Assembly: GCF_001891165.1 (NCBI RefSeq)
Contig: NZ_LKKW01000016.1
Location: 1 to 32,270 of the forward strand
Direction: 5' to 3'
DNA: 32,270 bases
Origin: Streptobacillus ratti
Lineage (GTDB): Bacteria > Fusobacteriota > Fusobacteriia > Fusobacteriales > Leptotrichiaceae
Positions 14,311 to 18,575 of this stretch are shown one piece after another. A program made the translations under genes and the position numbers. The notes beneath the pieces were generated by a model. That model did no database searches and was not told the origin of the DNA. It saw only the letters and a list, made by a program, of their open reading frames with translations. Numbering within the stretch: the first letter of the stretch is position 1; every line of letters starts with the position of its first letter.

Positions 14311-14330
14311 AGAGTGGTTATTCCCACTCT
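14311..14330 (-). terminator. Terminator overlapping the end of the Imm51-like gene
   Basis: Minus strand AGAGTGG (14330-14324) and CCACTCT (14317-14311) form a 7-bp stem around a six-base loop that contains the TAA stop; ATTTTAATG follows. The U-run is weak. Confidence 0.55.
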
Positions 14331-14677
14331 ATCTCACTTGCTTTTTCTCTAATTATTGTATATATCTTTTCTTCATTTTCTAATAATTCTCTTATCATTT
14401 CCATATATTTTTTAGCTCTTGGAACATTTTCTGGTATAGTTATATAAAAGCCTACATATATTCCATCATCAAAATCATGCTGAAGATCTAATAAAAGTTC
14501 TGGTCTATATGTTTTAACATAATAGTCAAAAAAAGCTGCCCAATTTTTCCCATTCATATATGCTCTTTTATCTATAGATTCCATTTTTTCACCTATTTCA
14601 TAAGGCTTATCTTCTGTTAAATACAAACAAATGTCTATAAAATCTTCATTATTAATTAATTCTAAATATTCATTCAT
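14318..14677 (-). CDS. Small acidic protein, possibly Imm51-family immunity protein
   Basis: The 119-residue protein is acidic and soluble, without signal or membrane segment. The central stretch AYMNGKNWAAFFDYYVKTYRPELL, followed by a YVGFYI strand and an amphipathic C-terminal helix, resembles the Imm51 immunity-protein family as I recall it (NG.NW.A...YY pattern). Imm proteins bind and neutralise contact-dependent or secreted toxins; no toxin gene is nearby, so this would be an orphan immunity gene or a housekeeping homolog. Its ATG overlaps the LOG-family stop by four bases, so the two are translated together. The function call is tentative; the gene itself is well supported. Confidence 0.7.
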   Translation of the reverse strand: MNEYLELINNEDFIDICLYLTEDKPYEIGEKMESIDKRAYMNGKNWAAFFDYYVKTYRPELLLDLQHDFDDGIYVGFYITIPENVPRAKKYMEMIRELLENEEKIYTIIREKASEIEWE

Positions 14678-15198
14678 AAGTTTTTCTCCAGTTCTTCAAC
14701 ACTATTATATACTTCAACTATATTTCTATCTTTTTGTGTTAAAAATCCATTTTCTACCATTTTATCTAAATACATAATAAACTCGTTATAATATCCATCT
14801 ATATTTAAAATCACACATCTTGAATTACTTAATCCCAATCTAACACCAGAATAAGCTTCACTAATTTCTTCTAGTGTTCCTGGTCCACCTGGAAGTGCTA
14901 TATACATATCACTTTCAAATAATATCTTTTTTCTTTCAGCCATAGTTTCAACTATAATTAATTTAGAAAGTTCATTACTTACTCTTTCTTTACTAGCTAA
15001 AAATCCAGGCATAACACCTATTACTTCTCCCCCCAAAGATAAAGATGCTTTAGCTAAAATTCCCATAAGTCCAATTTTTCCAGCACCATATACTAAAACA
15101 TTTTTAGTTTTTGCTATCAATTCCCCTAATTTATTTGCTGATAAAGCAAATTCTTCATTATTTCCAACACTTGCTCCACAATAAACAGAAATTTTCAT
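14674..15198 (-). CDS. LOG-family nucleoside 5'-monophosphate phosphoribohydrolase
   Basis: LOG (TIGR00730) proteins hydrolyse the N-glycosidic bond of nucleoside or cytokinin monophosphates in the cytoplasm. The 174-residue product shows the Rossmann start ISVYCGASVG, LVYGAGKIGLMG near 36-47 and the diagnostic PGGPGTLEEI near 103-112, which carries catalytic residues. GGAGGTC precedes the ATG. It begins 32 bases after the tRNA-Cys gene on the same strand and overlaps the next gene by four bases. The physiological substrate in bacteria is usually unclear. Confidence 0.9.
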   Translation of the reverse strand: MKISVYCGASVGNNEEFALSANKLGELIAKTKNVLVYGAGKIGLMGILAKASLSLGGEVIGVMPGFLASKERVSNELSKLIIVETMAERKKILFESDMYIALPGGPGTLEEISEAYSGVRLGLSNSRCVILNIDGYYNEFIMYLDKMVENGFLTQKDRNIVEVYNSVEELEKNL

Positions 15199-15230
15199 AT
15201 GACCTCCAAAAAATGTAGATATAAAAAAAA

Positions 15231-15305
15231 TGGAGGCGATAATCAGACTCGAACTGATGTAAAAGGTTTTGCAGACCTCTGCCTAAGCCCCTCGACCATA
15301 TCGCC
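15231..15305 (-). tRNA. tRNA-Cys (GCA)
   Basis: Minus strand GGCGATA (15305-15299) pairs with TATCGCC (15241-15235), with discriminator T and encoded CCA (15233-15231). The anticodon loop reads CTGCAAA (anticodon GCA) and the T arm contains GTTCGAGTC. A run of eight T directly follows CCA on the minus strand. Confidence 0.96.
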
Positions 15306-15316
15306 ACACTAAAGTA

Positions 15317-15346
15317 AATATATCATAATTCAAGCATATTTGTCAA
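15317..15346 (-). promoter_or_regulatory. Promoter of tRNA-Cys
   Basis: Minus strand TTGACA (15346-15341), 18-base spacer, TATATT (15322-15317), 11 bases before the tRNA 5' end. Confidence 0.75.
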
Positions 15347-15383
15347 GTCGTTTTACAATACATGGTCATTGTAAAGATAAATA

Positions 15384-15405
15384 GACAGTACCCTTTCATA
15401 CTGCC
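15384..15405 (-). terminator. Possible terminator after the outer-membrane protein pair
   Basis: Minus strand GGCAGTA (15405-15399) and TACTGTC (15390-15384) form a 7-bp stem with one G-T pair and an 8-base loop right at the stop codon; TATTTATCTTT follows. Modest. Confidence 0.45.
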
Positions 15406-16034
15406 TAAAATGTATATCCTGATTCTATTCCTATTACTCCTTTAGTACCATAACCACCAAATAATGCTACGTTATATTTATCTGATATTTTAGTTCCTAA
15501 TGCTACTTTAATTAATGGCATAAAACTAGGAGAAGAAAAACTATATTTAAATCTTAAACCTCCACCTAATTCTGTCCCAGCATAAATTTTAATTCCCTTA
15601 TTAACTAATTGATTAACCTCTCCTACAAATGCTAAATTAATTGAACCTTGCTAAGTAATATCGGTATGATATTCTGTCATTAATGATATTTTAGGTCCAA
15701 ATGTAATATCAAATTTAGGGTTAATCTGTTTTTTCCATTCAGGTAAAAATGAAACAGATTTATAAGCATAATATCCAAATTTTTTAGTTGTTGTATTATA
15801 TATAGGTAATGTACTAATGCTACCCTCTACCCTATATTTTGGTCCACTTATTTTTGTATTTGTTTTATTTATTGTTTCTTTTTTTATATCTTTTTCTGTT
15901 GTTGTTTTAACTTTAGTGGATTTTACTTTTTTAGTTTCATAATCTCCTCTATTTGTAGGTTTTTGTCTATTTACTTTTGCTGAAAATGAAGTTAAACCTA
16001 CAATTAATAATATTGATAATAATAATTTTTTCAT
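15405..16034 (-). pseudogene. Outer-membrane beta-barrel protein interrupted by an in-frame TAG
   Basis: The first 127 codons encode a signal peptide (MKKLLLSILLIVGLTSFSA), a Lys/Thr-rich linker to about residue 62, then GPKYRVEG and a barrel strand FLPEWKKQINPKFDITFGPKI shared almost word for word with the neighbouring gene. Codon 128 is TAG (15651-15653). The same frame then stays open for 81 more codons of amphipathic strands (AGTELGGGLRFKYSF, KYNVALFGGYG) and ends GIESGYTF, the terminal aromatic residue typical of outer-membrane proteins, matching GLEVGYTF of the paralog. The intact form would be about 209 residues. A single nonsense change therefore removes the C-terminal barrel; the truncated product lacks the terminal targeting strand and is unlikely to fold in the membrane. 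A 32-base gap separates it from the upstream paralog; the SD (AAAGGAAAGGA) is set rather far from the ATG. Confidence 0.85.
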
Positions 16035-16066
16035 TTTATATTTTAATGTCCTTTCCTTTAGTAAAA

Positions 16067-16648
16067 TTAAAAAGTATATCCTACTTCTAATCCACCAACT
16101 AGCTCCTTATTAAGTCCAAATTCTGTATAAAGTCCCACATTATATTTCTTTATTTTAGTCCCAATTGAAAATTTCCCAAGTATTGTTGGGTGAACTAATA
16201 ATTCTATATTTGAACCACCAATCATTATTTTTGAAACATGTATATCTGGTCTAACAGTTGCTAGTGTTTCTATTCCTGTATATAGCTTAATGTTATTTGT
16301 AACTGTATAATTAAAATCTACTCTAATCCCTGTACCAATACCCCAAAATATTCTTCTCTCATATTCATCGTATAGTTTATAAGAAGAAGTAAAAATACTT
16401 GTTGTAATTTTTGGTCCAAATGTAATATCAAACTTATCATTAATTTTAAGCATCCACTCAGGTGAAAATCCTAAAGATACATCTACATTTATATAATTTC
16501 CCTTAAAGTTCTTATCGTTCTCATCATGTGGGTCTGGTTTATACCCTGCACCTAAAATTCCCTCAATTCTATACCTAGGTCCTGTTAATTCAATCGGCAA
16601 TGAAACTAGACCAATTAATAGTCCTGTTATTAATATTAATTTCTTCAC
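16067..16648 (-). CDS. Small outer-membrane beta-barrel protein
   Basis: The 193-residue protein has a signal peptide (MKKLILITGLLIGLVSLPIE), then GPRYRIEG and alternating amphipathic strands (FSPEWMLKINDKFDITFGPKI, IKLYTGIETLA, YNVGLYTEFGL), ending GGLEVGYTF with a C-terminal Phe, as expected for an eight-strand-type outer-membrane barrel. The start is GTG: AGGAGGAAT lies just upstream, while the overlapping ATG runs into TGA at once. It is the first of two tandem paralogs. Its promoter contains a G7(TG)4 repeat in the spacer, suggesting switchable expression. The role is unknown; surface exposure and adhesion or permeability are guesses. Confidence 0.85.
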   Translation of the reverse strand: MKKLILITGLLIGLVSLPIELTGPRYRIEGILGAGYKPDPHDENDKNFKGNYINVDVSLGFSPEWMLKINDKFDITFGPKITTSIFTSSYKLYDEYERRIFWGIGTGIRVDFNYTVTNNIKLYTGIETLATVRPDIHVSKIMIGGSNIELLVHPTILGKFSIGTKIKKYNVGLYTEFGLNKELVGGLEVGYTF

Positions 16649-16680
16649 ATATTCCTCCTGATTTTATTTTTTCCCCATTA

Positions 16681-16712
16681 ATTATACCCCCCCACACACA
16701 CTATTTTGTCAA
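16681..16712 (-). promoter_or_regulatory. Promoter with repeat-filled spacer (candidate phase-variable) for the outer-membrane protein pair
   Basis: Minus strand TTGACA (16712-16707) and TATAAT (16686-16681) are both perfect consensus but sit 20 bases apart. The spacer contains GTGTGTGT followed by seven G (plus strand C7 at 16687-16693, then ACACACAC-like repeat to about 16701). Slippage in either tract would change the spacing toward or away from the optimal 17. Confidence 0.8.
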
Positions 16713-16757
16713 TGGTAAAATAACATCATGTTTACAATTAATAATTTTAATAATATC

Positions 16758-16787
16758 TTGCTATCACTTCTTATTTTATGGTATAGT
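16758..16787 (+). promoter_or_regulatory. Promoter of the acyltransferase gene
   Basis: TTGCTA (16758-16763), 18-base spacer ending TGG, TATAGT (16782-16787). AAGGAG follows before the ATG at 16815. Confidence 0.55.
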
Positions 16788-16814
16788 TATCTATATTAAA
16801 TAAGGAGTTTTCAA

Positions 16815-18575
16815 ATGAAAGAATTAAAAGGACTTAATGGATTACGTGCAGTTGCTGTAATTCTAGTTATTATTTATCATTTCTTCCCTAATATACTTTC
16901 TGGTGGATTTTTAGGAGTTGACTTATTTTTTGTATTATCAGGATACTTAATTACTTCAATATTAATAGAAAAAAATAATTTAAATATAAAAGAGTTTTAT
17001 TATAAGCGGTTTAAAAGATTATTTCCAGTATCTTTTTCTATGTTACTTATTTTAACTGTAATATTAGCATTAACTAATAAAGACTGGTTAATTAAAGAAA
17101 AAATGAATATATTAAATGGTTATATATATAATTCTAATTTACATTCTGTGCTTAGTAAATCTAATTATTTTGATAATTTTTCTATAGCATCGCCCGTTAA
17201 ACATTTATGGTCGCTTGCAATAGAAATGAAATTTTATATCTTATTTCCACTAATATTTCTAACTAATTTTGGGAAAAAATATATTAGACAAATACTAATA
17301 ACTCTATCCGTTATATCTTTAGTTTGTATAAATATATTGTATATAAAGGACAGTAAGAATTTATCAATTATATATTATCTATTAATTACTAGAATTTATG
17401 CTTTATGTATAGGTGGAATTTTTGCTACATTTATACCTTTATCAAAACTAGCTAAAAAAAATATTCCTACTTTAACAAAAATTTTAGGATTTATACTTTT
17501 AGGAATATCAATATATACTATGACTATAATAGATGAGCAATCTATATTTCTATATAAATACCTAGGTGTATTAATTTATTCAATTATATTTGGATTTATT
17601 ATACTATTTCTTTCAAATTCAAAAATACTTGGATTTTTTAACTATATAGGTAAATTATCATATAGTATATATATCTGGCATTATACTATATTTGTATTAA
17701 CGACACCTTATGAGGAATATTTAAATCCAAACTTTACTAATGTAATGATTAGAATATCAGTTACATTCTTTATCTCTATTTTATCATTCCATTTTATTGA
17801 AGAACCTATAAGAAAAAATGGATTTAAAAAATATTTTGAAAATCAACTTATAGCTGTAATTACTCTTTTGTTGTCAGTATTTTCTATTCTTTCTATTTCT
17901 GGAATGGACTTAGAATTATGGAGTTATAGGCTAATTGATGAAAAGGAAGTTGGTGTTAAATCACTTGATTTAAATGTTAATAAAATAAATGTTGATATTA
18001 AAAAAGAAGTTTCTAAAGAAATTTTAGTAGAAAAGAAAAAAATAAATAAAGTGTTAATGTTAGGAGATTCACTAGGGATAAATATTGCATATGCTTGGGC
18101 AAAAGTTCTTCCAATACTTGAAGTAGATGCACAAACTGGAAGATTTCTACATGATGCTATAGAAATATCAAAAAAATATACAAAATACAATAGTCCTGAT
18201 TCAAATGTTGTAATTATGCTTGGAACTAATGGACCTATAACATTAAAAGAAATAGAAAAAATCAGAAAAATATTTAATAAAGCAAATCTTTTTTTCATAA
18301 ATGTTAATGTCCCTAGAAAATGGACTAAAGGTGTAAATATGACATTAAAAGAAGCAAAGGAACTCTATGAAGATATTAAAATAATAGATTGGTATTCTTT
18401 ATCTAAAGATCATCCTGAATATTTTAGAAAAGACAGAGTCCATGTTAATGAAAATGGTGCTGAAGTATTAATAAAAGAGATAATGAGGGTTATGGATTCT
18501 GAATATGATATAGATGAAAATGCAAAACCTAAATTACATATAGTTCATGAATTAAGAAGCAAGGATAAAAAATAG
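16815..18575 (+). CDS. OatA-like membrane O-acetyltransferase (acyltransferase 3 + SGNH domain)
   Basis: The 586-residue protein has an N-terminal Acyl_transf_3 membrane domain (residues 1 to about 360, some ten hydrophobic spans) opening ELKGLNGLRAVAVILVIIYH and GFLGVDLFFVLSGYLI, with the conserved His and the R-K-R-like FYYKRFKRLFP loop. After a last span near 345-362 and a linker comes an extracytoplasmic SGNH esterase-like domain (about 410-575): LGDSLG with nucleophile Ser, LGTNGP, and DRVHVN near 540 with the catalytic Asp and His. Such proteins move acetyl groups across the membrane onto peptidoglycan, lipopolysaccharide or exopolysaccharide. The layout matches OatA and lipopolysaccharide O-acetylases; the acceptor is not known. 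It is a single gene. Confidence 0.9.
   Translation: MKELKGLNGLRAVAVILVIIYHFFPNILSGGFLGVDLFFVLSGYLITSILIEKNNLNIKEFYYKRFKRLFPVSFSMLLILTVILALTNKDWLIKEKMNILNGYIYNSNLHSVLSKSNYFDNFSIASPVKHLWSLAIEMKFYILFPLIFLTNFGKKYIRQILITLSVISLVCINILYIKDSKNLSIIYYLLITRIYALCIGGIFATFIPLSKLAKKNIPTLTKILGFILLGISIYTMTIIDEQSIFLYKYLGVLIYSIIFGFIILFLSNSKILGFFNYIGKLSYSIYIWHYTIFVLTTPYEEYLNPNFTNVMIRISVTFFISILSFHFIEEPIRKNGFKKYFENQLIAVITLLLSVFSILSISGMDLELWSYRLIDEKEVGVKSLDLNVNKINVDIKKEVSKEILVEKKKINKVLMLGDSLGINIAYAWAKVLPILEVDAQTGRFLHDAIEISKKYTKYNSPDSNVVIMLGTNGPITLKEIEKIRKIFNKANLFFINVNVPRKWTKGVNMTLKEAKELYEDIKIIDWYSLSKDHPEYFRKDRVHVNENGAEVLIKEIMRVMDSEYDIDENAKPKLHIVHELRSKDKK

Follow-up and report, generated by a model that had tools for sequence, protein, structure and literature searches.

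Promoter and barrel genes at the locus

The window, that is, the whole 32,270-nucleotide stretch of DNA that was analyzed, is contig C16 of the Streptobacillus ratti genome (1.43 Mb in 146 contigs). On the plus strand, positions 16681–16712 read directly as ATTATA CCCCCCC ACACACAC TATTT TGTCAA, which on the minus strand is TTGACA-AAATA-GTGTGTGT-GGGGGGG-TATAAT, GTGTGTGT being (GT)4. A sequence-only reading of the window had placed perfect TTGACA and TATAAT boxes 20 bases apart here and had called the seven G the longest such run in the window; the first claim held exactly, with every coordinate right, and so did the second, G7 being the only run of seven or more G or C. Apart from (GT)4, the window has no GT/AC repeat of four units, and the compound motif of both boxes, (GT)4, and G7 has a single occurrence in the whole genome. 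The end of the −10 box lies 32 nt upstream of the GTG start of the first barrel gene (Table 1).

Table 1. Features of the promoter at 16681–16712 and of the genes downstream
Feature	Position	Strand	Basis or remark
−35 box TTGACA, perfect consensus	16707–16712	−	read directly
Spacer, 20 nt, AAATA-(GT)4-G7	16687–16706	−	read directly
Dinucleotide tract (GT)4, first of two spacer repeats	16694–16701	−	specific to the window's copy
Homopolymer tract G7, abutting the −10 box	16687–16693	−	read directly
−10 box TATAAT, perfect consensus	16681–16686	−	read directly
Ribosome-binding site AGGAGG, 5 nt upstream of GTG	16654–16659	−	read directly
First barrel gene, 193 aa, GTG start, signal peptide, C-terminal GYTF	16067–16648	−	predicted 8-stranded outer-membrane β-barrel
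Second tandem barrel gene, in-frame TAG at 15653–15651	15405–16034	−	reading-frame check

The proposal that the promoter precedes two tandem outer-membrane barrels held in part. The first gene is intact; the second is one continuous frame apart from its TAG, and intact paralogues of it exist. Because this TAG interrupts the second gene, only the first is clearly functional. An AlphaFold model of the first product (pLDDT 83) had eight strands, and its best PDB matches were OmpA, OmpX, and Ail. Against Pfam OMP_b-brl (PF13505) the protein scored 17.3 bits, under the gathering cut-off of 28.7, so that membership was not met and the barrel fold, as predicted by the model, rests on structure and not on this family. 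Matches to the family of the window barrel numbered 22 in the S. ratti genome, 39 in S. moniliformis, and 35 in S. notomytis, and a protein search of outside genome contigs with the window barrel (own and near genomes possibly excluded) gave no match.

An acyltransferase, tRNA-Cys, a Lysine_decarbox-like gene, and Imm51 form a neighborhood common to the window, S. moniliformis (G001:112193), and S. notomytis (G002:23973). In the window the acyltransferase and tRNA-Cys flank the barrel genes, whereas in the other two species barrel genes follow Imm51, and this gene order suggests a possible local move of the barrel module around tRNA-Cys (14318–18575 compared with S. moniliformis and S. notomytis). 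Positions 14318–14677 match Imm51 (PF15595), an immunity-protein family, and adjoin the Lysine_decarbox-like gene (PF03641).

G-tract promoters in four Streptobacillus genomes

Four Streptobacillus genomes, one per species, were compared: that of S. ratti (G000), S. moniliformis DSM 12112 (G001), S. notomytis AHL 370-1 (G002; LJRV01), and a fourth, G003. Those of S. ratti and S. notomytis are many-contig drafts, and the DSM 12112 chromosome (1,662,578 bp) is finished, from Sanger and 454 sequencing (PMC3035246). A search for TTGACA-N-G6+-N-TATAAT gave 14 places in S. ratti, 23 in S. moniliformis, 21 in S. notomytis, and 4 in G003; no Streptobacillus genome had a single match to the reversed pattern used as a control. 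Every tract of at least seven G was listed, each was then read in context, and a promoter was called where an exact TTGACA was accompanied by a −10 box with no more than one mismatch. In S. ratti, all 20 tracts of eight or more G, and 21 of the 24 of seven or more, sit in such promoters, the three exceptions all being G7; around 0.04 promoters would be expected by chance near 24 G tracts, given the base composition. The −10 box of these 21 was TATAAT in 13, TATACT in 7, and TCTAAT in 1. Promoters accounted for 36 of 44 G tracts in S. moniliformis, 23 of 32 in S. notomytis, and 5 of 11 in G003, the S. moniliformis and G003 counts each including one G6 tract found by the promoter pattern. Across the 85 Streptobacillus G-tract promoters, TTGACA is exact in 84, the G tract touches the −10 box in 73, and the spacer begins with AAA in 74. 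A further S. ratti promoter, at G000:C17:21811–21834, combines a tract of only G6 with a 12-bp spacer, which falls far short of the working range.

The proteins encoded downstream fall into few paralogous groups. The largest (n = 29) includes YadA-type trimeric autotransporters, 25 are small barrels, and 10 belong to a group including PF03797 autotransporters; the remainder comprise groups of 7 (~680 aa), 7 (~180 aa), and 3 (~480 aa) and three singletons. For 23 of the 25 genes in the barrel group, the distance from the −10 box to the start codon is 29–39 nt, a uniformity that argues that the boxes are a working promoter; transcription starts are unmapped.

Tract length across these promoters ranged from G6 to G13. 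Spacers of the 85 promoters measured 15 bp in 3 cases, 16 in 5, 17 in 13, 18 in 21, 19 in 26, 20 in 10, and 21 in 4, with single cases of 22, 24, and 25 bp. Between species, spacer length differed in 13 of 18 orthologous pairs (reciprocal-best, ≥70% protein identity), and did so even between orthologues with 97–99% protein identity. A 691-aa protein of the autotransporter group, 99% identical between the two species, has AAATACACT-G11 in S. ratti and AAATACACT-G9 in S. moniliformis; a 226-aa barrel-group protein, also 99% identical, has G11 in S. moniliformis and G10 in S. notomytis; a 177-aa barrel has G10, G11, and G10 across three species; and a protein of ~1,330 aa, again 99% identical, has spacers of 16, 17, and 20. 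Orthologues often share the same flanking bases, and the tract is therefore the fast-changing part. With one genome per species, all observed length differences are between species, and those of a single base could in part reflect assembly error. All four genomes have MutS; by this criterion, loss of mismatch repair was rejected as the driver, and Streptobacillus is not a repair-deficient hypermutator lineage.

Exact TTGACA/TATAAT promoters of Streptobacillus peaked at a spacing of 17 bp where no G tract was present (9 of 17) and at 19 bp where one was (22 of 60). The same was seen in unrelated bacteria, with 17 of 36 at 17 bp without a tract and 37 of 120 at 19 bp with one. The 17-bp peak of ordinary promoters provides an indirect reference for the ON length. 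Two accounts of the offset remain possible: the resting state of most switches may be down, with one or two slips separating them from the optimum, or G-rich spacers may shift the optimum itself.

Occurrence in other bacteria and known counterparts

By the strict pattern, only 9 of 98 Fusobacteriota genomes had a G8+ promoter, and those outside Streptobacillus with any had one to three per genome. A search of 84,980 species genomes yielded at least 118 stretches with the G8+ promoter pattern, a few of them from S. notomytis. The outside stretches were mostly from Clostridia and Bacilli, and also from Spirochaetes, Saccharibacteria, Selenomonadaceae, Streptococcus, and others; across phyla, the modal spacing of TTGACA/poly-G/TATAAT stretches was likewise 18–19 bp. 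Some outside genomes held 5–9 promoter copies, with a control count of 0, and viral contigs scanned for the pattern gave 2 matches. A hydrophobic N terminus was encoded downstream of 80 of 108 outside G-tract promoters compared with 5 of 23 ordinary promoters from the same DNA (p = 4e-6). This enrichment for exported proteins is strong but preliminary, because the ordinary-promoter control was small and genes were picked automatically.

In Neisseria meningitidis porA, poly-G likewise lies between the −35 and −10 boxes of an outer-membrane β-barrel gene, and spacing is the proposed mechanism (PMC7864442). porA is, however, one locus with a poly-G tract, whereas Streptobacillus, of a different phylum, has some 20–36 loci per genome with perfect TTGACA, and the window copy has a compound (GT)4-G7 tract. 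The OmpW homologue tp0126 of Treponema pallidum also carries poly-G between the −35 and −10 boxes of a small barrel gene, again in a different phylum and in an unrelated gene family; for tp0126, transcription has been measured against tract length and is reported to be optimal at a spacing of 17 nt, and a dependence of transcription on spacer length has been measured for porA as well (PMC7864442). A dinucleotide repeat that alters box spacing is known from the promoter spacers of Haemophilus influenzae hif, namely (TA)n. That repeat controls two divergent pilus promoters, whereas the window has a single promoter, in which a GT repeat is followed by a G run. Transcription of surface-protein genes is similarly controlled by the length of a homopolymer at the promoter in N. 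meningitidis opc (poly-C) and in T. pallidum tprL and tprE/G/J (PMC7864442). Simple spacer length is ruled out as the mechanism in opc and tprL because the tract overlies a promoter box, the −35 box in opc and part of the −10 box in tprL (PMC7864442).

In the open-access literature searched, no prior description of phase variation in Streptobacillus or Fusobacteria was found, and two genome papers, one of them PMC3035246, make no mention of homopolymers. The mechanism is already known, being of the porA/tp0126 kind; the novelty lies in the phylum, in the scale of use, in the compound tract, and in an apparent recurrence in several phyla.

A putative spacer-length switch and its rivals

A switch of the porA type has a repeat between recognizable −35 and −10 boxes, a surface-exposed product, and repeat lengths that span the working and non-working range; it would further show frequent, reversible length changes inside a clone and transcription that varies with spacer length and is best near 17–18 bp. 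The repeat is present at 16681–16712. Surface exposure of the product is predicted from the barrel model, the signal peptide, and the C-terminal F, and the range of lengths is met across loci and between species, not within a species. Resting on the anatomy of the element, its genome-wide recurrence, the association with surface genes, and the length differences between orthologues, the reading that we regard as very likely is that the window element acts as a contingency switch of transcription and belongs to a promoter type that varies surface genes; switching itself has not been observed. Slipped-strand events that add or remove bases in the (GT)n and Gn tracts, which are inferred to occur in growing cells, would alter the distance between two perfect σ70 boxes and, by analogy with the measured systems, how well RNA polymerase engages both of them. 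The state of the switch would in turn set expression of the small surface β-barrel. With the promoter type used some 20–36 times per genome (fewer in G003), autotransporters and barrels would be varied independently, and the benefit may be immune evasion or diversity of adhesion in rodent hosts.

Much of this had been anticipated. The sequence-only reading had proposed that an outer-membrane barrel is driven by a promoter with a phase-variable spacer, and this is supported as the best reading, with switching inferred; its mechanism was correct, and its single-site view is now widened to a genome-wide set of promoters. Of the precedents it had cited, porA fits and opc, with its tract over the −35 box, differs. 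Its claim that a 20-base spacing is a low or off state is kept as probable, by inference and without measured transcription, and the loss of about three bases that it had invoked to restore optimal spacing would reach 17 bp through one GT and one G or through three G.

That the motif arose by chance or as an assembly artefact can be all but excluded. Homopolymers are error-prone and two of the genomes are many-contig drafts, but the identical architecture is found in the finished S. moniliformis DSM 12112 genome, the reversed control gave nothing, and the chance expectation is negligible. An artefact is accordingly rejected for the promoter architecture, and tract lengths remain uncertain at the level of single bases. 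Very unlikely, in our judgment, is an alternative in which the G tract is not a length switch but a fixed element whose structure or bound regulator tunes the output of a promoter that is otherwise constant; stiff A-like DNA, a G-quadruplex, and a protein site are candidates. That the tract is placed so strictly next to the −10 box, that spacers share an AAA at their start, and that the mode is 18–19 bp would suit such an element. Against it, tracts vary from G6 to G13 and spacers from 15 to 25 bp, both differ between orthologues whose flanks are nearly identical, almost all targets are surface proteins, and signal-peptide codons in the same family contain G tracts as well.

A narrower rival, which remains possible, accepts the promoter type and holds that the window copy is a retired or locked switch, derived from a working G-tract promoter whose tract, once interrupted to give (GT)4-G7, became too short for frequent slippage, leaving the gene stably low or off. 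Its G7 is the shortest promoter tract in the S. ratti list of seven or more, where the sisters have G8–G12, the 20-bp spacer exceeds the ordinary optimum by 3 bp, the second cistron has an in-frame stop, and a related S. moniliformis promoter is likewise broken. This closest relative (G001:611565, 59–60% identical) has (GGT)3-G6 with a spacer of 24 and no (GT)4; the other closest relative (S. notomytis, G002:23973) has a pure G10 and a spacer of 17. On the other side, the boxes remain perfect, the first barrel gene is intact with a conserved 32-nt leader, and (GT)4 can itself gain or lose 2-bp units. Taking the element as a contingency switch, we think it likely that the promoter, at its present 20-bp spacing, is in a low or off state, which is inferred in the absence of transcription data. 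Loss of one GT unit would bring the spacer to 18 bp, and loss of one GT and one G to 17 bp. Both repeats are shorter than the G9–G12 usual among the sister promoters, however, and for this reason the window copy may slip slowly or be locked.

If the switch reading is true, the genus that causes rat-bite fever relies on transcriptional slippage at 20–36 loci to vary most of its adhesins and barrels, giving roughly 2^20 or more combinations at the surface, which would bear on persistence in rodents, serology, and vaccine targets, and Fusobacteria would join the phyla with spacer-type phase variation. Because the promoter is uniform, the set offers a clean natural series for relating promoter activity to spacer length. 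A bolder reading, toward which we lean only slightly, is that the promoters form a genome-wide randomizer of the surface coat and that this part arose more than once among unrelated bacteria (Clostridia, Bacilli, Spirochaetes, Saccharibacteria, Streptococcus), with a common resting spacing of 18–19 bp that leaves most switches within one or two slips of the 17-bp optimum, so that only a minority of cells would express each gene. The recurrence across phyla suggests that the few textbook cases greatly understate how common this switch is among gut and oral bacteria.

Two minor observations concern other members of the barrel family. Two near-duplicate S. moniliformis barrel loci differ at the tract, with G9 in one and GGGGGTGGGG in the other. 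Some barrel paralogues of S. moniliformis and S. notomytis have G7–G10 tracts within signal-peptide codons, which, as inferred from the sequence, could possibly give translational (frameshift) phase variation of the family.
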